NCBI GenBank assembly: GCA_026387335.1
Contig: JAPLLX010000004.1
Coordinates: forward strand, 141,955-189,484
Length of the DNA stretch: 47,530 nt
Direction of reading: 5' to 3'
Source of the DNA: Candidatus Omnitrophota bacterium
GTDB lineage: Bacteria; Omnitrophota; Gorgyraeia; Gygaellales; Profunditerraquicolaceae
Part shown: positions 1 through 47,530 of the stretch, one piece after another
How the letters are laid out: every line of letters begins with the position of its first letter
How positions within the stretch are numbered: the first letter of the stretch is position 1
Notes under the pieces: generated by a model
What the model was told of the DNA's origin: nothing
What the model saw: the letters and a program-made list of their open reading frames with translations, nothing else
The model's database searches: none
Program-made: the position numbers and the translations under genes

Positions 1-634
1 GTATGACACGGGCAAAACCGCCTAAGAGGCGTTGCAGAGCATCGCCATGAAAAGTAATCACCGGGCCCAAACCGCCTTTCCAGACCTTACGCCCTTCGGG
101 AGATACAACAAATATTACTTTATCCTTAAGATACGAAACATGCTTCTCAGCCCAATCTTCAGGAATATCGCCAAGTTTTAAAAGTATAAAGTCAATTAAA
201 GGAATCTGACGCAGGTAAGGTTGCTCACTCACTACGGTTTTTAAATGTTTAAGCAATACATCCTCTTCCTCTTTACCTAAAAACGTTACTGCCTTGAGCA
301 CAGGGTAACGGCTTTCTATCGGAGCGGTATGGGCCTTAGCGCTATATTGCGCTAAAATATCAGCCGCTGCCACAGCATACCTACGATCTTGTATTTCCCG
401 GTATTCATTCTCATGCTTGCCATCAATAACCCATATTTTTCTGGCACGTTCAATAACCTCTGCTACAAGTTCCTCTGAATTTCTATCAATAACCATGCCT
501 TCACGTACTGCCTGGTCACATTGTTTTAAGAATTCCATCAGAACCTTCGGGTTCTGGCTGTTTAAACAAACCCGTAACTCTTCAAGTAGTCTCTTAACAT
601 CTTCTTTAAGCATCGCCCGGGCAATGTCTTTACT
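1..634 (-). other. Unit cut by the left edge: helical repeat, then probable start of a second GT5-type domain
   Basis: About 150 residues of helices (VKRLLEELRVCLNSQNP, AVTFLGKEEEDVLLKHL; HEAT-like) are followed at 1-135 by KVIFVVSPEGRKVWKGGLGPV and LLGGFARVI. A strand ending in S-P/E, then V-x-KGGLG-x-V, then an L..G..A.VI strand is how starch/glycogen synthases begin, so a second GT5-like domain probably starts here and continues outside the window. Only the first 45 residues can be seen. Confidence 0.5.
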
Positions 635-3600
635 TACCGGACTGGAGGATTTTTCTTTTTCATTAAGCAAACCGAAAAGCTGTCTAGAGAAAAGGTCATT
701 TGTAATCTCTAACCTTATAGCGCCTTTACGCGCCTCCTCTAAGGCCTTAGGATGACCTGATTCTATAAACTTCTCGTAGAAAGCATAAGCTAATGCTGGA
801 TCTTTAAATGCTAATTCCAGGCCTATTTTACAGGCTTTGATAATATCTTTGTCTTTGTTTAGGTAGGAGATAGCTTGTTCATAAAGCTTTTGGACGGGTA
901 AATCCTTTTCTACCGGGCTGCTACTGCCCGCCCATTTTTCCATATCGTCGTTAATAAATCCCTGCATCAGGCCGACAGCCTTATCTAACCTTCTATTGAG
1001 CCTGACAGCGTGCTTCTCGTCAACCTCCCCCTCAGGAGTCTCAAATATCTCATCTAGATAGGTATATAAGTTACTAAACTGCTCGGAATATTTATCCATC
1101 AGGGTAACCCAAACTTTGAATTTCAATATAGACCTTTTGCTTAAACTCGGCAATAACTCCAGGCCCTTATCTCTGAAATACTTCCAAATGAACCAGAAGC
1201 TGGGTTTAGCCATCATCTCTCCGCAAATACTCCATTCGAATTCTTTGCCTTGGCGTTTAGCCAACATAATCTTATCACCCGCAGCATAAAGCAGTTTAAC
1301 AATAAGCGGCCTTATCTTTTCGTAATACTCCTTATAGGATTGCACATCGCTCCTGCTAATGCCATAAACTTCCGCAATAAGATCATTGCTGCCTACGCTC
1401 ATAAAGTTAACCTGAGGGTGGCCTAAAATTAACTCGAGATTATCTATCGCCAGCATTCTCTCAAGCATAATTCCAAAAGGAACATTGCGCTGTTCCAGCC
1501 CTAATTGTTCCAGAGCTTCATCAATAAGCTTTGAACATTTTTCCAAATCTTCCTTTGGCCCAATCATAGGAAACATAATGCGGGGATTGGTATAACCTTC
1601 TTTATATACCAACTCCAATATCCTGCTTATCTGCGTACGGGAAAGAGCCTGTCCTAATTCGGTTTCAAGATACCATTTGTTGCCTGAATACTTAACAGAC
1701 GACATAAGCGATAAAAGCAATTTATCCATTGCTAAACCTGAAATATCTAGACCGAAAGCATCTAGAATTCTAACAACGACTTTATAGACGCCTGCTGCCG
1801 ATAAATTATCCTTAAATTCCTTCCGGATTTCATCCGGAGACGGGATAACGCGTTGATTGTAGGTCTCCTCCATCTCACTCCTGTGTAATCCGACCCCCTG
1901 TGCGCCCAAGGCTATGGCCTCCCGGATCTCCTCAGGACTATCTGCGTTGGCATATACGCTAAACGGAAATTCTTCTAATTTAGCTGCCTTCTCTAAATAG
2001 TATCTATGTTCTAACTCTTCCTTCTCCTTCTGGAGCTTAAACTCCTGATTCGTTGCATCTGTAGGATTTAGCACTATGCGTTGTCCTTGAAAAATCAGCG
2101 CTTCCTGGCTAGACAAGAGTCTTTCCAAACTAACGTTATCTTTTAAGAAGAGGACTGGCTTATTTTTGGATGTTGCCAAGATAGCGAAGTGAGATTGCGG
2201 GCTGCCCATATTGCTTACGAAAGCAACCGCATTGTAGGTTTTACGGATAGCCTCCAATTCAAATGGAGCCGGCGTGAAGTTAAGAACTATAATGGTTGGC
2301 TGTCTTCCGTCTATTTTCCTTGTAGTCTCACTCTGACTCAAGATACGGATAGACTCAATATCCGAGACAAAGGCATCCGCAAAATACGCCAGCATTTCCC
2401 TTACATTAATCTCTTTTTCTATATCATCGTACGGTTCACTCAGGGTATCGTCAATCGCCTCTCTAAACATAATCTGCCGGTAACTCTGGTTCTCCTTAGC
2501 ATCTAACATTATGAATGCTGTCTTAAGGTACGCCCTTTTGATTAGAATAAGGCGCTCAATAATCTTTTCCTCTTTTTTCTTATTTATTCTCTCCTTTAAG
2601 ACCTCATCCCATTTTCTTATGTTTTGTTTCAGAAGTCCGGCCCGGGCCTGCGCATCTTTAAAGATAATATCAAGTATGTCCTTATGGTGGTATTCGTAGG
2701 TAAGGATAAGCTCGCGTAAGATCTCTGCTAAATAGTATTTAATTTCTTCAAAAAAACCAATTTTTTGGGCTAAATTTGCGGCATTTACACCCTCGGCTTT
2801 TTTTAGCCTTTCCTTGAGTCCACCGGTTTCATCAAGCCTTTCCGCAACAGACCCCATCATATCTAGAACAATAGCCTCAGCCCATTTATCTTCTTGAGGT
2901 TTTTTGTTACAAGCTTTTTCAATCTCATGTTCTATGGCTATATTATACGCTGCAATAAATTCTGGCTGGCGTTGCCTTTTGAGCGTTCTTTTAACTCCCT
3001 CTGTAATTATGGTAGCGGCTGTATCCAGGCGCTTACGCTCCCGCTCTAACTTATCCTGGAGGCCTGCCTCAATAAGAACCCGGGGAATAATAAACGGTTT
3101 CTCTAATGCTTCCCTGACAATTGTGTATAAGGTTGTTGAACCAACATTATAACTTTCTAATTCCTTTTTTAACTTGGGGGCTTCTGAGAATACTTCATCC
3201 AACAACCGCTTCACCTCATCGCTATTGCTCAATGTGGGAAGCTTATTTAAAATAAATGGTAGGAGGCTTTCGGTTAAAAGGTTATATATGTGCTCTTCAA
3301 ATTTTTGGGTTGATATCGCGCGACGGATAGTATCGCGTAACCGTGTCTCGCTGATTTTTCCTTTGCATATCTTTAAAAAGTAATCCAGATTTCTTAAAAC
3401 CAGGGATTGGAAAGCTTCTTTACTCTCTAGCGTCACTCTCTTGACGCTAACGACCTGCCCCCTTAAGCTGATTCCAAGGTTATTATTGGAGTAACTTTCA
3501 ATAATTGTTTCCGCAGTTACCGGCGAACTGGTGCCACTGCCATCAATCTTTGCCTGCGCCTTATCCTTAACCCAAGATAGGCTTGCTGCTTTGCGCAACG

Positions 3601-6600
3601 GGTAAACAACCCCTTTGAGTAAACCAAACTTAAGATATGCCCTCCATAATCTTAGGCGCGCTCTAGCTAAGCCAGGAGTAGCCAGATAACTGTCCCATGA
3701 CTCTCTCGCCAGTTTCCGCATCTTTCTTTCCAGCGGCTCTACGGTTATTATAAAGATTTGCGTATATATTAACTCTAACTGCTTACGTATTCTTACCGGG
3801 GAATTAAATTTATTATCCCAGGACCTTCTCGCTTCTTTACGCAGTAATTTATATAAATATTCTAATGCCCGTTGGAAAGTAGCAATGCTCCCCACCAGCC
3901 ACGGAAGGTAAAGCAAGGCTTTTTTGATCATAACTTTCCAACGGGACAAATCTATAGACGAACTGGTATCATCGCTGGGTTTCTGGGGATTCCAATTCTC
4001 TATAGTAACTTTTGGTTTATTGTCGGCAAGACTAAAGGTATGGACTGCTGCATCTTGGATGTTGACGAAAGGAAGTATAAATACGACTGTTATGCCAATA
4101 AGGAAAGGAAGGATGACGCGCATAATAACGTTAGGGGCGCGGGGCATATTGGAATAAGAAACCGCTTTCTCTTCGGGCCTAAAAAATAAAACTCTGGGAT
4201 CTTTATAATCTTTACCCTGCACCGGCGAACCGGATTGCTTAGATTTATTTAAGATAAACTTACGTGTCCCTAATTTTCTCTCTATAGTAAAATCTGTAGT
4301 AAAAGGAAAAGCGAGTCTTTGTTCTTTGTTCTCGCGTTTCATTGATACAACCCATAAGCCTCCTACAGCATCAGTAAGGTTCTCCTTAATTTGAATATTA
4401 ATGCCTTGTTGCTGCTGAATATCGCGGAAGATATCCTCAATAGGAATTAATCGTAACCCTACCCCATTATTCATCACAGGCAGCTTATCAGTTTCTATAT
4501 TAAGGTACGCTCGGCCTTGAACGTCAAGTGCCCTAAAAGCTTCTTCAAATACAAGCAATGGATGCTTAGAGTAATACGCGGCTGCCCAATGAGAAACTAT
4601 TAGATTGAATTTATTATTCCATTGCTCTGGAAGTTTTTCTGCCGTTATCCCTCCGTAGACAAATATTCCTCTTTCGCGCAAAACTTCAAAAGACGGATAA
4701 TCCACTATATCTATACCGAATAATTCTATTTTCCCCGCTAACACTCTTTCTTTAGTAAAATTATAAATGTATTCAAGGAAATCCGCCTTCTCACCTATTC
4801 CTAAGTCTAAAATTGAAATTTTCCCGGCTGCCTCTATAATATCTAACAGCATAAAGTTTGAAAAAACGGAATCCGGTGCAGATAGATATTCAAAATAATG
4901 GTCTGCGCGCCAAGAAACCCCCTGCCCTCCATCTTCTCTTAACCAATCCAGGTAACTTCCTGGCAGGATAATTTTTTTAACGGGCGAGCCGGCGAGCTGC
5001 GCTACGCGTATTATCTCTGCCCTGATTACTTTGCCTTTTTCTGTTACTCTGATTCTACGGAATGGAGGTCCTATTTCTTCTGCAGATATATCAAAAAGCT
5101 TACGGCTCTTCCTTACGTTGCGATAAATTGCTCTTAATTGGTCCGTTCCTTTCGCAGGAAAGCTTGTATCTTCGGGATAATATTGATTTAGTAATTCAAT
5201 AAGCTTTTCGCGGCCTAAAGATCTACAGGCAGATATAGGATAAGGGTCGCTATGATTGACCCATAACTTATTATTATCTACTATATCCCTATACTGCGTT
5301 AAGATTTCAGCCAATTTTTCCTTGATTATCTTCTGGTATTTTTTATTTACGGTGCGAAATGTATAAGTAACCTCACCCATAATATCCGGCTTTGGCGCAG
5401 GAGTAGGTTGGATAATCACGCTGCGAGGTGGCCTCTTGTGAGCCGCCAATTCCTCAGGAGAAGGTTGCGGTTCAAATAAAAGTTGCTGTTCAATTATCTT
5501 GTCTTTTTGGGCTTCAATAGGTTTCTTTTTTCTCTCAATACGCCCTTGTCTATTCTTTAATAATCCATCTACCTGGTCAAACCTCTCCCTTAGTCCTTCC
5601 GTTACCCTTCCTCCTGAATCCTCTAAATCCTTTAAAATTAAATCAATCTCATCACACACCAAAACTATTTCATTTGCGTATATTGCTTTTCCTTTTGTTA
5701 AAATTTTGCGCGTACCTTTCATCTTTTTTAAAATATCTTTTATCTGGAGCAATGCCACAGTAAACTCTTTGATTTCTTCTCCAGATAAATTATACGGCCC
5801 GTTTATAAATAAGGATACTGTCAATAAAGCTCTACCGACTTTCTCCCTTAATGGGCTTATCAGTCTTAAGGCCTGTTCAATTATTTCCAAAGAGTCGACA
5901 CTACCTCTATATTTATAGAAAACTTGTCTTTGCTTACCACTAGGGAGTTTTTTAATGCACTCCATACTGTATTCCACCGGCGAGCTGGTCTTATTCTTCT
6001 CTAAAGGTATTTCTATGGCGAATGTTCTAGCGGCGAGAGAAGCATTTTCCTGAGACGGAAAACTGGCGTCGGGATAAATTGACTTGATTTCTATCTTGGC
6101 TAGAGATAAATTCTTATCTAAAATATCTTCTCCATTAGCGCTTATTGATATACGCAGGCTATCGCTTACTATCTTAAGGCTAACATCAACTTGGGCACGA
6201 AAACCCTTTAGCCATAATTCCGGCTGGTTCTTTTTAAGCCAGGATGTGTTGAAAGAACTACTATTCAAAATTCCCCGGATAATACCAGCTAACTTCTTTT
6301 CGCTCTCTAATGGCCTGTAGCCTGTCTTATTTAAAGCCGCATTTAATCTACTGGTAATGTAATCAATAACTGGCTTAATTACCTGTGTAACCTCAAAATA
6401 TTCCCCATACTCAGGAAACACTATACAGAAGTTCGGCAATAATTCGTTCTTGCTATTTACCGGAGAGCTGGAGCGGCGAACTGCTTTGGTTTTGTTATTT
6501 ATCGGACTACTTCTTATTACCTTGATTATCTCCTCTATAAACTGTTCCCGTTCATCCAACTCGCCAGGTTTAATAAGACAACCCGGTGTCGTCGCCCGCG

Positions 6601-39600: not shown

Positions 39601-42600
39601 TTACATTCCAATGATTTTTGCCATCTTGTGTACGGTAAGCTACTACCGGAGGACCTTTAATCTTGCCGGAATCAGCTAAATACTTCTCCAATATCCCTAA
39701 TCCTTCTCCTAAGCGGTAGAACATCTTGAATACCTCTGGCTCAGACGCATATTTTTTGGCTGCCTCAGACATCGCCTGCGCAGTAATGTTATGATTGACC
39801 TCAGTTGAAGCAGACCTGGTTGAATCCTGCGTGGCTTTATCCGATCTTACCCTGATATCTCCAATTACTTTATCCTGCGTAGTTTTATCCCATATGCCGG
39901 TAGGAGTTATTCCTAAAACCTTCTGCATAAATTCAATTTTTGATTTTAAGGCGGGGGTAAAGCGGTCATCATTACCAATATACGTATCCAATATAAATGG
40001 GTCTTCAAACATTCCGGATAAACCGCCGCCTAAAGCAGGTAACCCGTTCTTTTCTGACCAGAATTTAACTGTATCGCGAATCTGATTCACCTCCCAGCCC
40101 TTATAGCCAACCTGGTATACTTCACTACCCTTAATAAATTTCATTTTGTCCAGATTTTCCTGCTCTAATTTAGCGAATAATCTTCTTTCTTCTTTCTGGT
40201 TAGCTTCTAGTTTTCCGGCCAACTCTTTCTTCTTAGATTCATTTTCAGTTAATTGCATCTCGCTGGTTATCTTCCTTCCTTCTAATTTAAGTTCGGCTAA
40301 TTTATACTGTTCCCCTGTCAATTTTGACTTTAATCTAGACAATTCGCCTTTCTCTAACTCAATCTCCTTAAGCGCTAATTTAGCCTCTAATTTATGCAAT
40401 TCCCCATTCTCTTTTTTAAGGCTTGCTTCTTTTTGAGCATCATTATTCTTTTGCTCTAATTCCAGAATATTTAATTTAATATCAATAATTTGCTTTCCAA
40501 ATCCTCTTAATTCCGGCTTGATATTCTCTATCCGGGCAAGTTGATTCAAAAACTCCTTCCTTCTTTCTACTACTTCCTGCGCAGGGCTTGTCCTTCCGGA
40601 TTCCCTGGCAATTAACTCATCAATAAGCATCTGCCAATGCGATTTATCAAATATAGAAGGTTTCGCTAAAAGATTGGCCTTGAAGAAAATCTCCGTGTTG
40701 CCATAGCCAGTTTCTTGCAAGAAGTAATTAAGCAACTCTGCGTCTTTGCTGGCTAATCCCGGAATTTTATTCCACCAATTCAATCCAACGCTATCTACCG
40801 ATGCTTTAGCCTGTTTTAATTTGTTTAATATTTCAACCTTAATATTCCCTATTTCCTTCTCTATTTCTACTCTTCTGGCCTCTAATTTCTTTGCCCCTAT
40901 CTCCATCTTTTCAAGTTCTTTCATATCATCAGTAGAATCTAGGGCGCCTAAAATCTCTTTGCGCTCATTGCCTATGACGTTATCTCGCTCAATATTTCTT
41001 ATGACTATCTTCATCCTCGCCAGCGTTATTTCTTCCTGAATGCTTCTGGGTGATTTAGCGCTCAGCTCAGCAAACTTAGCCTGTAATTCTTCTTTTTTCG
41101 CAGACGCAAATAATTCTGCTAACTCTTTTTGCAGGCTCATGTATTTATACTGCCCTTGCGGCAAAGAGCTTATATCGCTATCGCTTAGTTCAGCTAACTC
41201 CCGGACAATCTTTCTTGCCCGCTCTTTAGCAACGCTATTTGGCAGGCTTGAAATGATTCCCTGTGCTCTAACTAGATATGCATAATCGCCCTTGCCGCCA
41301 AAAGCCCTAAATAAGAATTCTTGTCCTTTGTATAATGCCTGCTCTGCTCCGGTAATACTGCTAACGCCCTCAATAGCCAACCCGCCAAAATTAAGAGCGC
41401 AGTACTTAGCCTGTTCAGGAGAATTTGAATCCGGTTCCAGAGAAGTGAAAAACATCTTTATGATTATCCCGACAACCGGGATAAGGCTTCCTAACCAAAT
41501 TCCCAGCTTAACTACTAAGAATATTTCAAACCCGATCATAAATAAACCTAACCATAGAACCCAGAATTTACTCATAGCATCGAAATGACTCCATAGCTTG
41601 CTCTCTTCTTGAGTAAGTTTTAAGCCATACTGCAACTTAGCTGAGATTGTCCTAAAGGATCCGCCCCTAGCTTTAAATATAGCTGCCCTTGCCAATAAGA
41701 CGGGGATACTTACAGGTAGAACATACCAGACTGTTGTGAGTAACCCGGTTACATACTGCCAACCTGCCCAGCGTAAATGGCGGGCTTTCTCAGACGCCAA
41801 AGAGAAAATGGTCAGAGGCTTATTTATTTCCAATAGCCCTCTTAAGACAAAACGCAGATGTCTACCGGTAGGAGAAGTCCATAGTTTATTGGCGTATATC
41901 TCTTGGAGCTGTTCCTTGGTGAATTGTTGACTATTTCTTAAAATATAATGCGCGTCTAAAGACGGTATCCCTTTATTTTTTGCTTTCTCAGCGATATTTG
42001 ACCGGCTCTTAGCTAAAACCATTCCTCCTAAAATTAACATAATCGTAACCAAGGTAGTATGTAAGATTGCCTCGATGGTAGTTAAAAGATGGACTTCGCT
42101 CATTGCGGCTAAAACCTCTTTTACTGCTATAGTCCCCCAGGCGAAATTAAACGATAAGTTATAAAACCAGGGTATTATATATTCAAAGAAGTTTAAGTTA
42201 GGTATGCCTAACGCTAATAAGATATTGGAAGCAATTATTCCGCTAATGACATATAAACTAATACGGCTACCGGTAAAAGAAACTATTCCCCGCTGATAAG
42301 GTTGATTTGACCATCCCCAGGCTATTTTTTGATATAACCTCGAAACTTGCAAACGATAAATCGCTTTACGCGCGATGTTATTCGAATTTTTCCTATCTAA
42401 TAATTCTCCTCGTAAGCCTTCTACCTCTCTTTTGATAAACAAAGGTAATTCTATTTCTATCTTCTTCTCTAATTCTTTATCCAGTGCTTCCGCGAATAAT
42501 TTTTTATCTTCCAAAATTTTGTCTCTCTTAATTATCTGCTCTGTCACCTCTGGCTTTAAGGAGCGCGTTAAATAACCGTGAAGAATATTCCTGACAAAAT

Positions 42601-45600
42601 CCTCCTCTTGAATTAAAACATGGAAATTAATAAATGGGGTTATCCGGGCGGCAAAGAAACCGCTAAAACCTTTTGTTATTCCATGGGCTAATTTAAAAAC
42701 AAAATATAGCAAGAAAGGCGCCCCTAAGACTAATAAAGCAGTAGCTAAAATCGCGCTTCCCTGGGCAGCAAGGATTAATCCTATAATAGAGATAGCAAAG
42801 CTTCCTAACACAACCTTGCCCGTGTAAGCAGGTAAATTTTCCTCTATGTGCTTAAACAAGCCTTTCTCGCCCGCGGATAATTTATATGCTTTAAATATTG
42901 ATCCATAAAGCAATCTTCTTAGTATATGGCTTTTTTCTTTCTCTAAAAGGCCAACGAATAAATCTTTATCCATTTTAATCAATTCTGATTCAAGCGTGCT
43001 TAAAACTGTCTTTTCATTTAAAGCGCGTAACGTAATATTTTTATCTTTAATAATATTCCTCACAGTGCTAGCGAATACAACAATTGTGGCAATTGAGGCT
43101 AGGGCAAAAACCGCGCTCATAATATAAGCGGCAGTAACAAAATAAACTGGTAAAGCTGCAGCCTGGGCGATGCCGCCAAGGATAGCGGAAATTACAAATC
43201 CGCCAAATATCAACCAGGTTTTAGTAAATAATCTGTAATAAAGCTTTACCGTATTCCCTAACCCCGCCACCACCGCGCCGAGGTTATACTTAACCGGGGA
43301 GGAAATAGCTTGAATCAACACCCGCTCTTTCATCTTATTGCCGGATCTAGAAGATAAATAATCAGAATCAGTATGTAATAAAATGGCGGTTATCTCTTTA
43401 AAACCTGTCTCACTTAATATATTTTCCCAATCTGCTTTATGTACTTTATTATTAGCTATTACAAGTCTAAATTGTCCCGAGGGTTTTAAGAGACGGAGGA
43501 TTTCTTTGGCGGCAGGCCTTATTTGCTCCAAGAAGAAAAGAGAAGGGTGGTTAAATAATACAAGGTCAAAGTATTGATCGGAAAACTGATGATTTTTCCG
43601 CATAATATCGCCATATTCAAAATTTAAATGTGGGTAATTTTTCTTTGCCGATCTTATCATCTCAGGATCATTATCTATACCGATGATTTCAACTGTAGGA
43701 TTTTGCTCCCGATATTTTTCCATAAAACTGCCCCCACCAAAACCAACCTCTAGTACTCGTTTATCTTTGTCTTCAACAATGGCCACGCCTGAACTTATGG
43801 AGCTGGAGGAAGCGAAAGGAACAAGGAATGACTCAAGCTCTTGAGTGCCAATTTTAACAACCCGGTTATTCTCCATAATCGCCTTTACGATATCCCTACC
43901 GTTTAAGGCAAGCCGCTCTTTAATCTTAGGGAATTGCTGACTAACGCGGACAGTAACATTCTCTAAGTGTTCGGGCGACAGATCAAGTTTATACCCCATA
44001 TACCTGTGCACAATGAGATTCTCAGCGCTCTTCTCGTTTAAACTGTCGGCTCGCCTTCTGGATTTCTCCTGCCTTGCCAGGAAACCCCGCGCAAATTCGG
44101 CACATATTGTTTTCAGCATCTCTTCGCCTAAACCCTCCTGCCTGCCTTTGGTTAAAAGTTCGTTAAGCATACCCGCTGACTCCCCGATTGACCCGGCGAG
44201 AGAATTGGAAAATACGAAGGAAATAGTTAAATCAATATTGGCAACCCAGACCGGTATACCATTAATAATCTGGATAACGCAATTAGCTGAGCTTCTATCA
44301 GCTATCGCCAACACAAAAGCGGCAAAGGCAGCTTCTCCCGTTCGCCGGGCCAGGCGACGGATAAATGTCTCCTGCTTTAGATGTTCGCTATTTAACTCCT
44401 GGCAATTTATGCCTCCTATATGGCGCGAGACGAAATATTCGCCGATAGTCACGGTTTCGGGATTAAAGATGTGTAATAAAGAGAGCGCGACAGACGCCGT
44501 CTCTTCCTCTTCGCGAGTCCAAGTTCTCCTGCTCTTCGCAAAGAATATCCTTCTGCCAATAAGAATCATAAAGGTCAGTTTGTTCTCGCCGGCATCCCCA
44601 AAATGTTTCTCCGTGATATTGATTACTTTTACATCCCCCATCTCTTTAGCGCCGTAAAATCCGGAGTTGGCGATGGCCTCTTTTAACTGCTCTGCTCGTG
44701 CGTCGAGCGGGCTGGAGCCGACCTTAAGCAGACTAGAGGAAATTACTGTCGTATTTCTTGCTTTCTTGGCTTCATATAAAGCTGCATCGGCATTCTCAGA
44801 TAACTGTTTTTGCGACATCGCGTTACGATAAGGAGCTATGCCGGCGCTGAATGTAATAACCCATTTCTCAAGTTTATTGTAAGGCAGCTGCTCCAGGGTT
44901 AATCCACTTAACCCCTCTTTATCTTCTATTAATCCCTGCACAAACAATTGCAGGACAATAGCAGAATGAATCTTCTCTCTAGTTGATTTATCCTCAATTT
45001 CTTCTATTCTATTTTTCATCACAACCTGTAGAGTCTCGCCGCGCAATTCCGGTAATTCTAAGCTTCTCACAGCATCACGGCATCTACCAAGTATCGTCGT
45101 TTTTGCCGTCTCAATATCTACGCCGACCAATAGGAACGCAAACTCCTCGCCACCGTAGCGAGCCAGTATGTGGATTTCTTCAGGTCTTATTGAACTCTTA
45201 ATTGTCCTGCCAAACTCCCTTAATACCTCGTCACCTGTAGAATGACCAAATAAGTCGTTAACCGCCTTAAAATGATCAATATCTACCATTACAAAGTATA
45301 AACGCCTGTCCGGGTATCTGCCGACAATTCTCATCGCTGCGCTAATGCTTTCGTCAAAACCTCTTCTGTTAGACAGCCCGGTCAATACATCAGTAACGTT
45401 AACTACCCTAAGTTCTTCTATTTGCTTTCTTAATTTCCTAATTGTTGCCTTTAATTCTCGATTTTCTTTCTCCAGCTCATCAAGTCTTGTCCCAACTGGG
45501 CTGGAGGTGGTTTTCTTGATTAAAGTAAGGCGGCTGATATCTTCTTCATACACTAGCAAAGACGCATTCTCCCGGCCAACGAATGTAAATTTAAGATAAT

Positions 45601-47530
45601 TGACGCCGGAATCGCCTTTTTCTACTCCGACAAATTCTACTTTTTGTTTATTTATCTTCTTTTCGGCCTTATTTGCGGCTGGCCAGATAATCGTGTAAAG
45701 CTGCCCAGCTTCTAAATCAAACACCGCCTCCAGCATTATTTGTAATTTCTGCTCTTCTGTGCTATTTATGAAGGAACGCTCCCATAATTCATTAAAAAGG
45801 TTAAGACGAGTATCTAATGGCATATTAAGTAACTTTTCTGTGTCATCATTCGTAATAATAACTCTATAATTCCCCACAAAGTCTTCAATGAAAATGCTAT
45901 GTTCTTCAATATCTCCCTTTGTTAAATCAACCTTTCCCACCGGGCTGGAGGCCTGAGTTAACACTAATAATTCCGCAACCTGTTTAGCAAATACCTTTAT
46001 ATTATACGGCTTGCTGACATTCTTTATCAGCCGGGTTTCAGCTATTCTCTCTGTGCCGCTCATAAATATAATCGGCAAGTCAGGATTTATCTTAAGTAAT
46101 TCTTCGACTAAAACCGTGCCACACATCTCAGGCATACGGTTATCTGTCACCACTAAATTAAATTTTCCTGCCTTAAATTTAGCTAAAGCCTCTCTTCCGT
46201 TCACCGCTTCTTCTACCTCATAACCCTCCCCTTCAAGAACCATCCTGACTAACTCACGCTGCGTTTCTTCGTCATCTGCAATCAAAATTCGCGCTCCCAC
46301 CGGGCTGGAGGTACCAGCCAAATCCTTATAGGCTTCCTCCTTGCGCTGACGTTCTGCTTTACTTATTGCTTCACTTACACCCCCCCGGGGGTTAACTAAG
46401 AAGAAAAACCCGATGGCGGGTAATTCCACCAAGAAGTCAGTCCAATCATTACTTACTATCACCTCAACGAAATATGCACCAAATAATGCAAATATGGTGG
46501 CGAGAATAGTTCTCATAAGTCTGCTAGATTTAGGAAAGTAGTTCTCCCATATCACATCAAAGGCATTTAGCAACCCAAAAGGTAGGAATATGTCTGAAAG
46601 ATGCCATCTTACCCAACGAGAGGCTATGGTTGGGTCTTCACGTGCATAGAGACTAAAAGCGATACCCCCTATACATATTAGCAGTAGTAATACTCTTAAA
46701 AAGAACCAATAATAGGGAGCGAATGCTTTATGGAGGCGGGTGATTTCGCTGGGGAGATTTTTCAGTAAATTTGCTCCAATCGGGCTGGAGGACTTAGCCT
46801 GCTTATCCCAAAGCCCTTGAATAAACCTTACAAACTTGTCATTATCCGATATATTGGCCTTCTTAAATTCGCTTACTACACCTTTAAATTCGCTAATTCC
46901 CTTAACTTCTCTTAAGAAACGCAATTGATTAGTGTAGGCTTCTATTTCTCTCTCGTCTTTTATATATGCGTCGATACCGCCTGATAAGTTACCGGTGAAA
47001 TCCTGAGGCTGTATTATCCATTGTCCATAATGAGAACCCTCGTGGACTAAAACATGGTCAATTAGATTTGAAATCAATATTACATGCTCTTTATCGCCAA
47101 ATATAAACTCGCTTACTATTTTGGCTACCCTGGACGGAAGAGTCTTAAACGCCTCTGGCTTTACCCCAAATCCGCCAGCCATTCCTAGCAAGCCCATTTT
47201 TTGATTACTATTATTAATTACCTGCATCATTGATTCTTCAACCATAACAATCCGCATATCCTTAATTTTATTTATATGTAACGAATCCTTCATAAACTTA
47301 AATGCTTCGGGGAATTCTCTATGTATAGCTAAAGATACATCTATAAACTGATCCTTAAGCAGTCCCATTATCTTAGATAACTCCTCATCGCTCATGAGGT
47401 TCAGTTTAAATAGCATTAGGTCCTCATTGCAAGCTGTGAGGGAGGGAGATGCTAAAATTATAGCCAACCAAGCCAGGAAGTTCCTGCGGTTGAGCCTCAA
47501 TTCGAAATCGCCTATAGAAGAAATACCTTT
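1..47530 (-). CDS. Internal part of one giant multidomain protein (about 15,843 codons visible, both ends outside the window)
   Basis: One minus-strand frame (plus-strand triplets at positions equal to 2 modulo 3) stays open from edge to edge. I translated it throughout and met no TAA, TAG or TGA. Domain motifs at both ends and throughout fall in this same frame, so there is no frameshift. Local residue number is (47530 - position)/3 + 1. The chain carries more than 25 recognisable domains separated by SSP-type linkers (separate entries). No start with a convincing ribosome binding site is visible; a TTG at 47498-47500, just before a signal-like segment, is the only start candidate near the right edge. 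Giant genes of this type are known from Candidatus Omnitrophota. What is seen: the open frame and the domains. What is inferred: that it is translated as one chain and that the host is an omnitrophote. Confidence 0.95.
650..910 (-). other. Unit: short helical (TPR-like) module, 87 residues
   Basis: Lies between SSSPV linkers at 911 and 635. Reads as three helix pairs with small residues at packing points (LYEQAISYLNKDKD, KIGLELAFKDPALAYAFYEK, ALEEARKGAIRLE). It resembles a TPR/Sel1-type element, too short for a firm call. Confidence 0.4.
926..3517 (-). other. Domain: PTS enzyme I/PEP-utilising phosphotransferase
   Basis: About 290 residues of helical lead-in precede an enzyme I-like core: NMGSPQSHFAILAT (phospho-His in SHFAI, codon 2189-2191), NADSPEEIREAIALGAQGVGL with HRSEME, VVVRILDAFG, RIMFPMIGPKEDL, GIMLERMLAI, VNFMSVGSNDLIAEVYGISR and SICGEMMAKP (active-site Cys, codon 1223-1225). 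Enzyme I takes phosphate from PEP and passes it to HPr, starting sugar uptake or regulatory phosphorelays. The usual Arg positions of the PEP site and the NDL motif are kept, so it may be active. No HPr domain is visible. Total unit length is 864 residues, against about 575 for standalone enzyme I. Confidence 0.85.
3530..4219 (-). other. Unit: membrane segment and basic helices
   Basis: A strong hydrophobic helix (VILPFLIGITVVFILPFV, about 4080-4135) is followed by a Pro/Ser/Asp-rich stretch containing the degraded linker TSSSI (3953-3967), a second weaker hydrophobic segment (KALLYLPWLVGSIATF), and Arg/Trp-rich helices with two similar motifs, ARRSWDNKF and ARESWDSYL, about 45 residues apart. 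A small internal duplication is possible. No family is recognised. Confidence 0.45.
4232..4978 (-). other. Domain: second class I SAM-dependent methyltransferase
   Basis: ISILDLGIGEKADFLEYI is motif I, IELFGIDIVD motif II, FNLIVSHWAAAYYSKHP motif IV and FRALDVQGRAYLNIE motif V. About 249 residues long, between AGSPV and SGSPV linkers. The motif I glycines are reduced (GIGEKA), but the fold is clear. Substrate unknown. Confidence 0.75.
4991..5974 (-). other. Unit: helical domain with proline-rich middle, 328 residues
   Basis: A helical bundle (IEQALRLISPLREKVG, EIKEFTVALLQIKDILKK), then a basic stretch and a Pro/Gln-rich tract (LLFEPQPSPEELAAHKRPP, IIQPTPAPKPD) that looks disordered, then a small domain with NHSDPYPISACRSLGREK. 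Ends at AGSPV (4979). No family is recognised. Confidence 0.4.
5987..6457 (-). other. Unit: small unrecognised domain, 157 residues
   Basis: Bounded by SSSPV (6458) and TSSPV (5975). Begins FCIVFPEYGEYFEVTQVI, followed by a helix and then two antiparallel strands (VDVSLKIVSDSLRISISANG) and IEIKSIYP. This suggests a compact alpha+beta fold. No family is recognised. Confidence 0.4.
6512..7597 (-). other. Domain: end of one HAD fold followed by a second HAD domain with intact DVDGT
   Basis: The first 90 residues contain PVPTKKTAMENFLAETG (motif III-like Lys) and GVYIGNQNSSADERDGVL (motif IV-like acidic loop), expected near the C-terminus of a HAD phosphatase. Then LPRFLGLDVDGTI (Asp-x-Asp-Gly-Thr, 7217-7231) starts a second HAD fold, with TTVIFSDND as motif II. 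Such enzymes dephosphorylate or isomerise phospho-sugars through an aspartyl-phosphate. The unit ends in two tandem linkers at 6500 and 6458. Confidence 0.65.
7616..9229 (-). other. Domain: HAD-family (phosphomannomutase/SPP-like) hydrolase fold
   Basis: After a helical part come KIAVFDITDRMREK (motif I region, though DxDGT is replaced by DITD), FGGILIVETALSKKEL, and a cap-like VILVPYAGAQVWRFNENGE, which closely follows the LYANGGAxxYxFDxxGN pattern of eukaryotic-type PMM and sucrose-phosphatase relatives. Loss of the second Asp of motif I suggests a non-catalytic or altered domain. The SSSSPI linker (7598-7615) lies before what look like HAD motifs III and IV of the same fold (next entry). 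Confidence 0.5.
9230..10829 (-). other. Domain: YvcK/CofD-family (gluconeogenesis-factor-like) domain with an insertion
   Basis: Family motifs appear in order: GIMGGSGGIPTLSMENLL (glycine loop), FGTHDDGGSS (DDGGSS at 10679-10696), GDAMNVLSYL, LRYRFP, GDLRLANGSLANFIFIGHH, VLPSTLDQATLYAKLE, then AIILGPGSNITSID (about 9375-9415) and IPVIYIVNPTKDNE. YvcK binds UDP-sugars and controls carbon flux and cell-wall synthesis; CofD makes the F420 precursor. The UDP-sugar-rich context favours a YvcK-like role. Between VLPST and GPGS lie about 220 residues of beta-rich sequence (about 9520-10190), far longer than normal. Confidence 0.8.
10830..11739 (-). other. Region: helical segment before the YvcK-like domain
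   Basis: About 300 residues of helix pairs (LIKMLEKTSGEIEVSAYLI, KREILAEFIENHSIDG, EDVQIIIEALIGKVALE). No family is recognised. It carries no linker motif and runs directly into the CofD-type fold. Confidence 0.4.
11740..13799 (-). other. Domain: GlmU-like nucleotidyltransferase with left-handed beta-helix
   Basis: A helical lead-in (13100-13800) precedes an N-terminal Rossmann-like domain with the nucleotide loop VAVAGRGERFSKLVHKG (about 13018-13068), resembling A-G-x-G-x-R...K of sugar-1-phosphate nucleotidyltransferases. The middle part has VIFVSMHQLRW and ALIILSRPLGPGH. At 11750-11950 hexapeptide-type repeats form a left-handed beta-helix (ATISGEIYLDCRVKIGKG, then DNVQLSNVFIEGPVRI). A nucleotidyltransferase followed by LbH is the GlmU/GlgC layout. 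The substrate is unknown. Confidence 0.6.
13800..14809 (-). other. Domain: DUF89/ARMT1-like damage-control phosphatase
   Basis: Order of motifs matches DUF89 proteins: NPYKDTNSDANECALE, LKMAIGGGVIDLNS, KLVYFLNNNGEVVFDLFFIQ, then YVVAKEQTLGNDVSSEDAEK. Members are metal-dependent phosphatases acting on reactive phospho-sugars and related metabolites, which fits the sugar-nucleotide neighbours. The usual DNAGE metal site reads NNNGE (14300-14314), so the first Asp is Asn while the following Asn and the later Asp (GND) are kept. Activity is therefore uncertain. Confidence 0.65.
14810..15949 (-). other. Region: helical and coiled-coil segment ahead of the DUF89 domain
   Basis: About 380 residues, starting with a basic tail (LHQGKFRAKPFRNSGEK), then mixed alpha/beta (FSVFYIFRSRTGFLNG), then long Lys/Glu/Arg-rich helices (AAKRRIDRIEKQIDDFK, LEQLEKAIKRQISQQ). 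No family is recognised. It opens the second longest linker-free unit (15949 down to 7616, about 2,780 residues). Confidence 0.4.
15962..17479 (-). other. Domain: complete GT5 glycogen/starch synthase
   Basis: 506 residues between two linkers, against about 480 for bacterial GlgA. All landmarks are present: LHVSPEWDPFSKEGGLAD (ADP-glucose loop K-x-GGL), IIHLHDWQ, IHNLENQGVFD, VLITVSPRYAWEI, ILNGVDYEVW, VISRLVEQKGLDL, MTSRREPCGQTQM (catalytic Glu, about 16262-16291), and ARYGLPPIVFRTGGL. It transfers glucose from a nucleotide sugar to an alpha-1,4-glucan. It is clean enough to be functional as an independent enzyme, and it is bounded by TSSPI and TSSPV. Confidence 0.95.
17492..18679 (-). other. 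Domain: GalT/GDP-galactose-phosphorylase-like HIT domain
   Basis: The core reads RSHILIIPEPEKEY, then LGFNPWGGLASVN and HLHLQG. HLHLQ (17918-17932) is the H-x-H-x-Q signature of galactose-1-phosphate uridylyltransferases and plant-VTC2-like GDP-galactose phosphorylases, whose middle His forms the nucleotidyl-enzyme intermediate. The preceding ASVNHLH is especially VTC2-like. An N-terminal helical part of about 200 residues links it to the epimerase. The predicted chemistry is nucleotidyl transfer or phosphorolysis on a hexose nucleotide. The exact substrate is open. Confidence 0.75.
18680..19738 (-). other. Domain: UDP-glucose 4-epimerase (GalE-type SDR)
   Basis: A full-length (about 350 residues) extended SDR epimerase immediately after the SSPI linker. 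Visible: NAD loop VVGGAGYIGS, VVVYDNLRQGH, LAANTLTFESKDKP, the catalytic Ser/Tyr region ATSGAVYG, YNRTK (Tyr-x3-Lys, 19256-19270), LRYANVAGG and RDYVSVKDVA. This is the classical GalE pattern. The predicted reaction is UDP-glucose to UDP-galactose, or the GlcNAc/uronate equivalents. All catalytic residues are present. It sits between the uridylyltransferase-like domains and a GalT-like domain, a Leloir-type grouping. Confidence 0.92.
19751..22204 (-). other. Domain: probable second nucleotide-sugar pyrophosphorylase-like domain with long C-terminal part
   Basis: An 818-residue unit. Near its start VVVLYAAGEASRL (about 21922-21962) and, 20 residues on, RGPGFKMW recall the AGGxxTRLG...PK loop of UDPGP enzymes. 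Later strands (LKFVITVNND, VMLILNDLLNG, TAIVHRMNDLILLVGEQAVDLDMLALWKK) would suit the same Rossmann-like fold. The second half (20900-19800) is largely helical and unassigned (YTGHGVSGEGYETINALS, DKRPSIVGFDNVAR, PRDIWGYSDFNRNYEILLG). The family call is uncertain. Confidence 0.4.
22220..23499 (-). other. Domain: UDPGP-family sugar-1-phosphate uridylyltransferase, divergent
   Basis: Follows the pattern of UTP-glucose-1-phosphate/UDP-GlcNAc pyrophosphorylases: a nucleotide loop SAGGLSTRSGG (23360-23392), VIGGRTFIDIKL, VGLPFIIMTSQM, YVISQTVQP, QPPGHWNFIRML, SGVLAELKRKGILFVF and HSNMNNPAG. These enzymes make UDP-sugars from UTP and a sugar-1-phosphate. The loop differs from the usual GGxGTRLG...PK: the Gly before Thr is Ser and the lysine is not apparent, so activity may be altered. 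The unit ends at SSSPI (22205). Confidence 0.7.
23500..24283 (-). other. Domain: second HExxH zinc-peptidase-like domain
   Basis: After SSPA and a proline-rich stretch (containing LSSPG at 24200-24211) comes a beta domain (YPVVVDLDEIDIS) and then a helix with HEIIH at 23831-23845 (preceded by LTAILF), followed by NPNLSELRVLEMTIE, where a downstream Glu could complete zinc binding. This pattern is seen in small gluzincin-like peptidases. Exact family not recognised. It is fused directly to the UDPGP domain with no linker between them. Confidence 0.5.
24296..25165 (-). other. Domain: pol-beta-type (MNT-like) nucleotidyltransferase
   Basis: The signature GSRR (25010-25021) followed 15 residues later by DVDILV (Asp-Val-Asp at 24959-24967) matches the hG[GS]...Dh[DE]h metal-binding motif of the nucleotidyltransferase fold. 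A further acidic strand (FEYYLNAKLIQ) may supply the third carboxylate. A helical C-terminal half follows (about 24300-24620). Such enzymes transfer a nucleotide to a protein, RNA or small molecule; the target is unknown. Confidence 0.7.
25181..25897 (-). other. Unit: second lipobox-like membrane segment plus helical repeat-like domain
   Basis: Follows SSSPL immediately with KMTSQ (Met at 25892-25894) and then a hydrophobic segment, SFSIISLLLLFVDCLIGC (Cys at 25787-25789), again lipobox-like, and another helix (GIATVILIIIGYFV). The C-terminal 150 residues are helix pairs reminiscent of HEAT/TPR-type repeats. No Shine-Dalgarno sequence precedes the Met, so an internal start is not supported. 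Confidence 0.5.
25913..26434 (-). other. Unit: lipobox-bearing membrane segment plus small alpha/beta domain
   Basis: Right after SSPVKEQ comes a basic-then-hydrophobic segment, SSLRLNLIILFSAVSSLFS, ending LTGC (Cys at 26354-26356). It looks exactly like the signal peptide of a lipoprotein, followed by a second helix (TVFVLFVITLLALKLSG). The rest is a small domain with strands FINLPN, IIQIVEPG and MVHGEGKGHAFIRR. A lipoprotein signal in the middle of a chain suggests that this unit was once a separate protein. Function unknown. Confidence 0.55.
26489..26959 (-). other. Region: C-terminal helical tail of the glycosyltransferase module
   Basis: About 155 residues (RTLTKIAEAQEALKKIG, then FTTDFHYSLQGYLSGR, then acidic helices) end in a Lys/Ser tract that leads into SSSSPL at 26471-26488. 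Only nine residues separate that linker from the next one (SSPV at 26435-26446), so the two form a tandem pair. Confidence 0.5.
26960..28259 (-). other. Domain: membrane glycosyltransferase-like core (GT2/GT84-type)
   Basis: The stretch contains a DxD-like MDID (DID at 28145-28153), then RISHMRHFMG, an acidic AEDA (Glu-Asp at 27866-27871) where inverting GT2 enzymes carry the catalytic base, and KKWSGDAPE (27728-27754) where they carry the Q/RxxRW motif. A cluster of transmembrane helices follows (TAQLIVIFYVLNF, GLAMLMWLYSVVVAQ, FFSYLFTFCTGL, LLILLSSF, WFFPIMSVIFGWW). The order DxD, ED, K/RxW, then membrane helices matches cellulose-synthase-like and cyclic-glucan-synthase enzymes, but motifs are divergent. 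The product cannot be predicted. Confidence 0.5.
28260..30679 (-). other. Region: N-terminal part of the glycosyltransferase module
   Basis: About 800 residues from the degraded linker at 30680 to the glycosyltransferase core. Mostly helical, with the segment PVEYVYPNQTPFEGGVSLDS and a membrane pair (ILFWGSILAVWGIFMLFV and WMKILFYALALVPLFGMF, about 29380-29600). A long charged helical part precedes the core. No family is recognised. The two membrane helices before a cytosolic catalytic core resemble the layout of processive membrane glycosyltransferases. Confidence 0.4.
30868..31109 (-). other. Transmembrane helix followed by a ComEA-like helix-hairpin-helix motif
   Basis: A strong hydrophobic helix (VVFGVIGFILAIVTLLWW) is followed at once by INLNSATQEELEKAL and then RRGAGIVVQYRREKG. 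INLN-A-EEL...A..I..YR is the signature of the ComEA/T2SK-type HhH motif, which usually binds DNA or mediates secretion-system contacts. The usual GIG turn is degraded to RRGAG, so nucleic-acid binding is doubtful. Confidence 0.6.
31110..35359 (-). other. Region: very long beta-rich surface-type domain, about 1,400 residues
   Basis: The first 200 residues are helical. From about 34700 to 31150 the sequence alternates short strands and turns rich in Y, N, D, G and K, with recurring YG-type turns (YGRLRSERTHF, NSGRITYGKGRR, DVYGRPTHIMNGF, YDGRLVSKDYLG). These recall RHS/YD-like or other wrapped beta structures, though no strict repeat period was found. A calcium-loop-like DVNGDGKERE lies at 34760-34789. 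It probably lies outside the membrane, since a single transmembrane helix follows. Possible jobs are adhesion or glycan binding; this is inference. Confidence 0.45.
35360..36530 (-). other. Domain: alpha/alpha-toroid (six-hairpin glycosidase-like)
   Basis: About 390 residues of paired helices with aromatic and acidic residues in the loops: YPSSYTWDMVLIGHRALL, FDFDGVPTAFHAYTKE, SAAGLGQLIMFYEAKTG, AEPNAVAYAFLYNYA, FTADAQTRWIMVLG and AYTGLYNYTVLGDN. This rhythm (W/D-rich loops, one helix pair per about 50 residues) is typical of (alpha/alpha)6 glycan-active domains such as GH families or polysaccharide lyases. No catalytic pair can be assigned, so the family is open. Confidence 0.5.
36540..39040 (-). 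other. Region: unrecognised, mainly helical, about 830 residues
   Basis: Begins with a short alpha/beta part (IRNILFAGYREEQEAKF, VFIVSSVDKKD), then a beta-containing part with repeated W/F (YKVEGFIESGRIELD), then long charged helices and a segment with hydrophobic LLLAPANLLFNWSG. From 37200 to 36600 it reads as mixed strands ending in KYRVFILTKKG. No family is recognised. It bridges the M23 domain to the toroid-like domain. Confidence 0.4.
39050..39430 (-). other. Domain: M23 (LytM-type) endopeptidase fold, one catalytic His replaced
   Basis: The beta-sandwich core is clear. HRGFDIYVPKGTP carries the first zinc ligands (His at 39350-39352 and the Asp three residues on). GEVIYADEKNGFGNIVVV and YVTFYAHN follow, then QGDKV and GEMVHFEIR. 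M23 enzymes cut peptidoglycan peptide crosslinks. The usual HxH is here M-V-H: the zinc His is present (39101-39103) but the catalytic His is a Met (39107-39109). Like EnvC/NlpD-type relatives it may therefore bind or regulate rather than cleave. Confidence 0.85.
39840..39985 (-). other. Domain: peptidoglycan-binding-like helical motif
   Basis: The segment around ALKSKIEFMQKVLGITPTG followed by IWDKTTQDKV matches the pattern of PG_binding_1 domains, in which a helix containing a core Phe/Leu-Gln is followed by a Gly turn and a second helix starting W/F-D-xxT. It lies about 140 residues before an M23 peptidase domain, the usual neighbour of such motifs. It is short, so the family call is moderate. 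Confidence 0.6.
40130..41419 (-). other. Region: long coiled coil
   Basis: About 430 residues are almost entirely charged helix with heptad-like Leu/Ile spacing. The densest part, about 40150-40480, has repeating K/E/L segments such as LEAKLALKEIELEKGEL. A short interruption near 40700-40800 (GLNWWNKIPGLASK) splits two coil segments. A TSPA near 40585 may be a weak linker. Such coils precede the M23 domain in many EnvC/NlpD-like envelope proteins, which fits the peptidase that follows. Confidence 0.7.
41420..43291 (-). other. Domain: polytopic membrane region
   Basis: The largest linker-poor block opens with about 620 residues carrying several paired hydrophobic segments. Examples are WLIFGGFVISAILGG, VTAAYIMSAVFALAS, KVVLGSFAISIIGLIL, SLYVISGIIASNILLALG, TTLVTIMLILGGMVLA, YVLPVSIPVLLARA and WVLWLGLFMIGFEIFLVV. 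Helical amphipathic stretches with many Lys/Glu separate them. No transporter family is recognised. It probably anchors the peptidase part that follows. Confidence 0.65.
43304..43795 (-). other. Domain: class I SAM-dependent methyltransferase
   Basis: Motif I reads VLEVGFGGGSF (about 43724-43756), the SAM-binding glycine loop. Strand 2 ends in the ribose-binding acidic residue of IGIDNDPEM. FEYGDI supplies motif III, FDLVLFNHP motif IV and LLKPSGQFRLVIAN the later strand. The core is compact (about 164 residues) and ends at the ISSPV linker at 43292. The substrate is unknown. Confidence 0.8.
43811..44704 (-). other. Domain: possible PI3K/HipA-like protein-kinase-fold domain
   Basis: About 298 residues between the SSPL linker at 44705 and the degraded SSSSI at 43796. 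The segment IADRSSANCVI (about 44279-44311) followed 20 residues later by NIDLTISF (about 44218-44241) resembles the catalytic loop DR(H)xxN and the metal-binding Asp motif of phosphatidylinositol/HipA-type kinases. A basic helix (KSRRRADSLNEK) and a helical tail follow. No clear P-loop lysine was identified, so activity is uncertain. It could also be an unrelated helical domain. Confidence 0.35.
44741..45493 (-). other. Domain: coiled coil plus GGDEF diguanylate cyclase
   Basis: A heptad-like helix (LDELEKENRELK onward, about 45390-45490) leads into a GGDEF domain. Visible landmarks are DVLTGLSNRRGFDE, the metal/substrate strand VDIDHFKAVND, and the catalytic GGEEF at 45140-45154 (residues 793-797), an accepted active variant. 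The C-terminal TFSAGIA and ADAALYEAKKARN motifs are present. The predicted reaction is 2 GTP to c-di-GMP. No inhibitory RxxD precedes GGEEF. The stretch between GGEEF and TFSAGIA is longer than usual. The coiled coil before the cyclase is typical of dimerising, receiver-controlled cyclases. Confidence 0.92.
45506..45937 (-). other. Domain: unrecognised alpha/beta unit, possible sensor
   Basis: This is a 144-residue unit between two SSPV linkers, placed between the receiver and the cyclase. Alternating short strands and helices (FVGNYRVIITND, then a helix, then VEFVGVEKGD and FTFVGRENASLLVYEED) would suit a PAS-like fold, but no diagnostic PAS residues stand out. The role is inferred only from position. 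Confidence 0.4.
45950..46297 (-). other. Domain: response-regulator receiver (REC)
   Basis: This 116-residue unit is flanked on both sides by SSPV linkers and is a complete receiver domain. It starts ARILIADDEE (acidic pocket), has the phospho-acceptor aspartate in VVTDNRMPEM (Asp at 46142-46144, residue 463), the Ser/Thr position in FMSGT and the conserved lysine in SKPY. Receiver domains accept phosphate from a sensor histidine kinase. No kinase is visible in the window. With the GGDEF domain that follows, it resembles PleD/WspR-type regulators in which phosphorylation controls c-di-GMP synthesis. Confidence 0.9.
46310..46777 (-). other. Domain: small integral membrane unit, about 155 residues
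   Basis: After the first linker come hydrophobic segments typical of three or four transmembrane helices: one rich in L/I/C after APYYWFF, then LPFGLLNAFDVIWE, then a TILATIFALFGAYF helix and an ELPAIGFFFLV segment. A charged tail (KAERQRKEEAY) leads into the next linker. The layout recalls small VanZ-like membrane proteins, but I cannot assign a family. It may hold the following receiver and cyclase domains at the membrane. Confidence 0.55.
46793..47530 (-). other. Domain: lipoprotein-like signal plus HExxH metallopeptidase-like domain
   Basis: This is the most N-terminal visible part. Residues 15-16 are a twin arginine (RRNFL), followed by a hydrophobic stretch ending in LTAC (Cys at 47429-47431, residue 34), which looks like a Tat-type lipoprotein signal. 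About 130 residues later comes HEGSH (47030-47044, residues 163-167), a zinc-binding HExxH, with EIEAYTNQ downstream offering a glutamate as a possible third ligand. It is probably a short zinc-peptidase-like domain on the outer face of the cytoplasmic membrane. The family is not recognised. The unit ends at the SSSPI linker at 46778. Whether the true N-terminus lies just outside the window or far away cannot be seen. Confidence 0.6.
47429..47494 (-). other. Tat/lipoprotein-type signal segment
   Basis: NRRNFL, a 15-residue hydrophobic stretch and LTAC form a twin-arginine plus lipobox pattern (Arg codons 47483-47488, Cys 47429-47431). If this is internal, it would act as a membrane anchor. 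If it is an N-terminus, the start codon would be the TTG at 47498 or just upstream, but no Shine-Dalgarno sequence is visible there. Confidence 0.55.

Follow-up and report, generated by a model that had tools for sequence, protein, structure and literature searches.

This locus raises the question of whether a frame that stays open across 47.5 kb of bacterial DNA is a single gene and, if so, whether one such gene yields one protein. The window (the whole stretch of 47,530 nucleotides that was analyzed) is C4:141955-189484, window base 1 being C4:141955, of a Candidatus Omnitrophota genome labelled G000, which comprises 1.38 Mb in 7 contigs and is 92.7% complete. Giant open reading frames (ORFs) of Omnitrophota are reportedly the subject of a preprint by West-Roberts et al. 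(10.1101/2023.11.21.568195), known to us by citation only. An ORF of 39,678 aa has been published for Ca. Velamenicoccus archaeovorus (Seymour et al. 2023, PMC10066038), in a paper where riboswitch, c-di-GMP, signal peptide, and cleavage are all unmentioned. In PMC12057145, a protein of ~85,800 aa is cited from a preprint; PMC13104272 cites a preprint in which processing of the giants into smaller proteins was reportedly proposed. Such proteins have been described as holding polysaccharide enzymes, receiver relays, papain-like peptidases, and methylases (PMC12419801), in agreement with the ORF studied here.

The frame is one coding ORF of 90.6 kb

Computed translation of the minus strand over window positions 2..47530 gave 15,843 codons with no TAA, TAG, or TGA and no ambiguous bases, which confirms the stop-free frame claimed by the original prediction; the longest open runs in the other five frames of the window were 62-238 codons. 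Recognizable domains occur in this frame throughout the window, as had also been claimed from the first to the last kilobase, and in both flanks. The check proposed at that stage, recovery of the flanking contig sequence, located the true stops: the whole ORF is C4:118493-209047 (30,185 codons, 90.6 kb), with a TAA at either end, no N, and its first ATG at residue 5. The window covers approximately residues 6522-22364 of the 30,185. The size criterion for an Omnitrophota giant ORF, a single open frame >20 kb, is met. The claim that this is one of the longest known genes held as far as a giant gene is concerned, but 30,185 codons are fewer than the 39,678 aa and ~85,800 aa mentioned above and than a related frame of 57,756 codons.

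Wherever it could be computed, dN/dS was well below 1 (for the head of the ORF, G000/G005: dN 0.12, dS 1.14), thus the giant frame is read as protein. A chance open frame was excluded by the zero stops in 30,185 codons and by the purifying selection, and stop-codon reassignment was ruled out, as none of the three kinds of stop is in the frame. That an assembly artefact or a degenerate non-coding frame explains the ORF has a close to negligible probability. The relatives are MAG-type data and there is no long-read support here; against an artefact stand the contig without N, the absence of stops across all codons, the selection on the frame, and a head that opens thousand-codon frames in independent MAGs, most of them reaching the end of the contig or locus. 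Misassembly was rejected on these comparable frames, which is evidence without long reads. Indeed, relatives with the N-terminal head reach 57,756 codons, so a single misassembly is no sufficient explanation. Two apparent ORFs of 24,260 and 19,843 codons on C3 and C2 are N runs and no genes. The proteome counts for G000 leave out sequence reading N, namely the whole of C2 and C3:15416-88195 (72,000 N on C3).

Giant frames with the same head in other genomes

The conserved head (the first ~285 residues) was found in 64/128 genomes of the order, in frames of 225 to 57,756 codons. Among the 40 head loci in named genomes, 38 belong to Candidatus Omnitrophota/Omnitrophica MAGs and two are named only "bacterium", so the phylum assigned beforehand was right. 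Most head ORFs leave the locus or the contig; the only clear stops are those at 409, 415, and 1,107 aa. The longest frame read (57,756 codons, G016:C2) is truncated by the contig end and has one 100-N gap inside. The genome search gave a frame of 70,450 codons in G068, for which gaps in the frame were not excluded, and the giant of G003, of the same genus as G000, has 35,009 codons.

A short peptide recurs between the units of the chain

A peptide with the consensus [S/A/T/V/G]-S-S-P-[V/I/L/A] recurs along the chain. The giant ORF contains 45 SSP[VIL] vs ~1 expected (SSPV 27 vs 0.28, SSPI 12 vs 0.37, SSPL 6 vs 0.49), i.e., 45 of the 64 in the assessable G000 proteome, where 3/64 are in one protein of 2,164 aa. 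None lies in residues 1-4834 and 7935-13537. The window holds 21 of these junctions, given here with the units of the chain.

46778, 46298, 45938, 45494, 44705, 43292, 26471, 26435, 25898, 25166, 22205, 19739, 17480, 15950, 7598, 6500, 6458, 5975, 3518, 911, 635, minus strand: first bases of the 12-base SSP[VIL] motifs
635..646, minus strand: last SSP[VIL] junction in the window
46301..46780, minus strand: unit 8, hydrophobic, 160 aa, bounded by SSPI (46778-46789) and SSPV (46298-46309)
45941..46300, minus strand: unit 9, response-regulator (RR) receiver, with SSPV at 46298-46309 and 45938-45949
45497..45940, minus strand: unit 10, 148 aa between two SSPV motifs, no family match
44708..45496, minus strand: unit 11, GGDEF diguanylate cyclase domain with an intact GGEEF; G005 has a homologous unit
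43295..44707, minus strand: unit 12, SAM-dependent methyltransferase domain
26474..43294, minus strand: unit 13, 5,607 aa, no junction motif, many hydrophobic segments, PG_binding and M23 domains
25901..26437, minus strand: unit 15, lipoprotein-type signal, lipobox LTGC 24 residues past SSPV
25169..25900, minus strand: unit 16, lipoprotein-type signal, lipobox LIGC 34 residues past SSPL
22208..25168, minus strand: unit 17, UDPGP (UTP-glucose-1-phosphate uridylyltransferase-like), homologues in G052 and G015 giant frames
19742..22207, minus strand: unit 18, 822 aa, no family match
17483..19741, minus strand: unit 19, GalE-type epimerase and GalT-like part
15953..17482, minus strand: unit 20, complete glycogen/starch synthase GlgA (TIGR02095 2-476 of 477)
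7601..15952, minus strand: unit 21, 2,784 aa, ARMT1-like and CofD-like domains
6503..7600, minus strand: unit 22, 366 aa, weak HAD-like match
5978..6460, minus strand: unit 24, 161 aa, no family match
3521..5977, minus strand: unit 25, 819 aa, no family match
914..3520, minus strand: unit 26, PEP-utilizing enzyme (PEP synthase / EI type), phospho-His motif present

Further domains in the whole chain are methyltransferases, an alpha/beta hydrolase, CheR-like, HAD and Asp/Glu racemase, radical SAM, and PCMT. Read by eye, the catalytic motifs of RR, GGDEF (GGEEF), GalE (YxxxK), GlgA (KxGGL, EPCG), and the PEP-utilizer (SHxAI) look intact, and the HxH of M23 seems incomplete. Hydrophobic segments are visible in unit 13 and others, without topology prediction. 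No NRPS/PKS modules (condensation/adenylation, ketosynthase) were among the Pfam matches of the scanned giant ORF, and tandem adhesive repeats were not dominant, since the scanned units are distinct enzymes and the k-mer scan was dominated by the SSP motif. A single-sequence AlphaFold model of the RR unit with both junctions had low confidence (pLDDT 46) and carries no evidential weight.

Across nine genomes, the position before SSP (-1) is a small residue in 203/228 cases vs 32/90 controls and the position after it (+1) is V/I/L in 153/228 vs 25/90, with little fixed further out. Both serines are coded by TCN and by AGY, with several unrelated codon strings for one peptide; the use of both codon types indicates that the peptide is the thing kept. 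The codons are biased to CCG and TCG, and recurrent codon strings include AGCTCGCCG and TCCAGCCCG; this G+C-rich bias suggests partial DNA templating, or some copying, as a possible contribution. A pure DNA element was rejected: codon variety and genome-wide counts of 9-10-mers describe a motif that is mainly peptide-level and partly DNA-templated.

The motif is enriched in the giants of G004, G005, G015, G018, G041, G052, G063, and G121. No enrichment was found in those of G003, G016, G080, G086, G130, and G048, so the motif is dispensable for a giant ORF; a k-mer scan of the motif-poor giants found no alternative junction motif. The motif-poor giant of G130 (C6, loci L142-L144; 16,498 codons) contains ~16 copies of an IWGIDLD repeat, so giants with the head differ in architecture. 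The tetrapeptide RAPP is enriched in two giants (12 vs 0.3 in G016, 5 vs 0.17 in G003), probably from a repeated domain.

Other repeated sequences were also recorded. The peptide GAVVA/GAVVG, unexplained, occurs 1-8 residues past SSPx in G000, G015, G018, G052, and G063, with only mild enrichment in motif-rich giants (52 vs 19 expected). In a 5,921-codon frame of G052 (C78, locus L093), SSPV junctions have copies of the interspersed repeat ERLLRRRVANRGLLAMTDNGNGRDESRPYNGVLGAVVG next to them, in the same frame, as if the element had been turned into a linker. The 14-mer TAGGGACAGCGACC is an interspersed repeat of unknown nature with 49 copies genome-wide in G000. The same genome has large ORFs at C4:10809-21635(-), C6:117188-123679(+), and C1:64576-68847(-), of 3,609, 2,164, and 1,424 aa, which have in common an N-terminal head (~LSLALTISLLFQQIGFAxIATELNL) distinct from that of the giant; SSP[VIL] is present in two of the three.

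Unit boundaries and exchange between genomes

The match to GlgA lies wholly inside one motif-bounded unit, and no Pfam match spanned a motif in scans of pieces that had not been cut at motifs. The edges of inter-genome homology fell at motifs in both genomes in 3, 4, and 1 cases vs 0.09, 0.11, and 0 with shifted motifs. The RR units of G000 and G018, which are of different genera, are 84% identical in nucleotides and 78% in amino acids, and their DNA identity begins shortly ahead of one motif and stops shortly behind the following one, the neighbors being unrelated. The heads of the two giants are ~68% identical in DNA, so the unit passed between giants as a piece delimited by the motifs. G005 and G018 share a unit matching at both motif ends. 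In general, the homologues of a unit in other genera also stop at this motif and have different neighbors: GlgA follows GalT in G000, and in G121 it comes after SSPM and ahead of a GalT-like part. In a 3,884-codon frame of G004 (C17, locus L096), the start of a PFK-like unit, SSPIHRIGILTGGGPASGHN, occurs twice, at residues ~1838 and ~2494, and identical DNA repeats are present elsewhere in the contig.

Tat and lipoprotein signals normally act at a free N-terminus. In G015 and G121, Tat-type signals begin 2-18 residues past the motif; lipoboxes lie 22-34 residues past it in G052, in G005, and twice in G000. These cases are few: a first automated search gave only weak enrichment (Tat 3 vs 0.8, lipobox 4 vs 0.6), and a stricter listing was clearer but small. 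A ribosome-binding site precedes the +1 codon in 1/45 junctions vs 4.9 at random, the +1 codons are mostly non-start codons, and downstream of the junctions there was no excess of Met or of a start plus a binding site.

N-terminal head and upstream riboswitch

Two features at the start of the gene lie upstream of the units described above.

C4:208184-209035, minus strand: head (residues 5-288), export-type signal and C39-type peptidase, outside the window
C4:209208-209305, minus strand: c-di-GMP-I-GGC riboswitch RF03167, 66.9 bits vs a gathering score of 59, followed by an overlapping terminator, outside the window

The head consists of a hydrophobic segment, then AQA-VEYDW, a composition suggesting that it may be exported, and gives a Pfam C39 match with invariant Cys136 and His221. 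An AlphaFold model built from 27 relatives (mean pLDDT 70) had C39 peptidases as its best PDB matches, and Foldseek against a C39 peptidase structure gave probability 1.0 and E 9e-6. In the model, the head is a C39-like fold with catalytic Cys and His; there are no data on its cleavage activity or specificity. C39 enzymes are known for double-glycine sites. The C39 peptidases of AMS/PCAT and ComA transporters have the same fold and invariant Cys and His; unlike them, the giant's head is joined to an export-type signal and not to an ABC transporter, at ~19% identity, and SSP is no double-glycine site. The same head also tops motif-poor giants.

The riboswitch, a full aptamer, lies 173 nt upstream of the start and is the only RF03167 match above the cut-off in the G000 genome. 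A weaker match (51.4 bits, below the cut-off) is at C3:222874-222954(+), ahead of an ORF of 530 aa whose N-terminus has a signal-like segment. Riboswitches were present in 11/12 head loci in each of two partly overlapping sets and at no fewer than 31 of 52 heads, all but one within 300 nt among the matches listed, and in 119/128 genomes of the order vs 0/14 control genomes. In most of 20 loci, the riboswitch is followed by a terminator, a hairpin plus U run. The sequence CCGGGCUG serves both as the 5' arm of this hairpin and as the 3' arm of an aptamer helix, therefore aptamer helix and terminator are mutually exclusive. The simplest reading of this pairing is a putative ON switch, in which ligand binding would prevent termination; the binding of c-di-GMP is inferred. 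Known c-di-GMP-I riboswitches (RF03167, RF01051) are alike in the full aptamer and in the score past the curated cut-off; the difference is that a 90-kb gene is controlled here and that the ligand of this subtype is inferred.

Embedded enzymes and their stand-alone homologues

Stand-alone homologues of the giant's units in the G000 genome are only 22-44% identical to them. A normal GlgA of ~450-520 aa is present in nearly every genome, with 35-40% identity to the embedded one, whose closest relatives (44-56%) sit in giant frames of 21,950 and 37,731 codons. The PEP-utilizer follows the same pattern. The embedded GlgA is a paralogue specific to the giant and distinct from a housekeeping copy, and the giant carries a second enzyme set, evolving separately.

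A proposed switchable polyprotein and its alternatives

Whole enzymes set at a recurring junction, together with a c-di-GMP-type RNA switch, make the giant gene look like a switchable polyprotein. Frame, unit boundaries, motif statistics, motif-bounded sharing between genera, riboswitch, and C39-like fold are established by observation. A riboswitch-gated modular polyprotein cut at SSP junctions is, if only by a little, a probable account of them, in which cleavage, the bond cut, protease, ligand, and unit location are inferred. The c-di-GMP-I-type riboswitch would gate transcription, the ligand preventing termination. Translation from one site would yield the head, with its export-type signal and C39-type peptidase domain, and then complete enzymes in a string. 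A protease would cut the chain at [S/A/T/V/G]-S-S-P-[V/I/L/A], most simply as SSP|V, and free units with fresh N-termini, some of which would be Tat or lipoprotein signals. Two marks of a polyprotein are present: a site that recurs where functional proteins adjoin and, as far as sequence signals can tell, no internal translation starts there. The main objections are that cleavage has no proteomic or biochemical evidence, that the protease is unidentified, and that a giant of the same genus lacks the motif.

The alternative that deserves most weight, although we consider it unlikely, is a giant multi-enzyme protein that stays uncut, with SSP[VIL] as a short linker and the chain as one membrane or surface assembly. 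Proline/serine linkers are common between domains, some giant ORFs of close relatives lack the motif, and long stretches are motif-free; moreover, published work treats the giants as adhesion or surface proteins (PMC10066038). However, a linker needs neither residues of a fixed class flanking SSP on either side nor exact placement at protein ends, and enzymes fused in the chain have little use for Tat or lipoprotein signals right after the motif. Improbable in our judgment is that the motif is an uncut scar, or micro-homology, of gene capture, with the units exchanged by recombination. It would fit the motif-bounded units with different neighbors in different genera, the motif-to-motif identity of the RR unit, the recurrent codon strings, and the interspersed repeat adjoining junctions in G052, but several unrelated codon strings encode the same peptide, and units with as little as 35-40% identity still end in it, a divergence at which a scar without selection would be expected to have eroded. 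Finally, each unit could be translated from its own internal start, the open frame being incidental: the residue after SSP is at the place of a start Met, and in a few cases is Met (SSPM, in G121 and G010). The deficit of binding sites, the lack of a Met excess, and the mostly non-start +1 codons make this very improbable, and nothing would hold 30,185 codons stop-free.

The polyprotein reading can be compared with known systems. Published Omnitrophota giant ORFs (>20 kb) are similar in phylum, size class, and hydrophobic segments; the defined junction peptide, the motif-bounded units common to genera, the C39-type head, and the riboswitch are added here. Giant Omnitrophota genes and the idea of their processing are already published, whereas neither the SSP junction nor the riboswitch link in Omnitrophota was found in the literature searched, which left preprints and most subscription journals outside its scope. 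Viral polyproteins have in common with the giant one long ORF, a recurring short site between functional proteins, and a peptidase domain in the chain; the giant differs in being a far larger, cellular enzyme gene, without shown cleavage or a link of the head peptidase to the site.

A more speculative extension, possible but doubtful, is a cellular polyprotein system in which the second enzyme set is held as motif-bounded cassettes swapped in frame between genera. The array would be c-di-GMP-switched, and its chain would be exported via the head, SSP|V-cut, and released as separate enzymes beyond the cytosol, conceivably while the cell is attaching to a prey or host.

The anatomy of the gene points to a polyprotein, so one gene need not mean one final protein, and the defined junction sequence makes product integrity testable in metaproteomes through peptide ends at SSP junctions. 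The riboswitch is a concrete regulatory input, of c-di-GMP-type signalling, which ties the giant genes to a lifestyle switch. A polyprotein at such a scale is unexpected in bacteria; if cleavage is true, this would be a very large one and an example in bacteria of a strategy familiar mainly from viruses.
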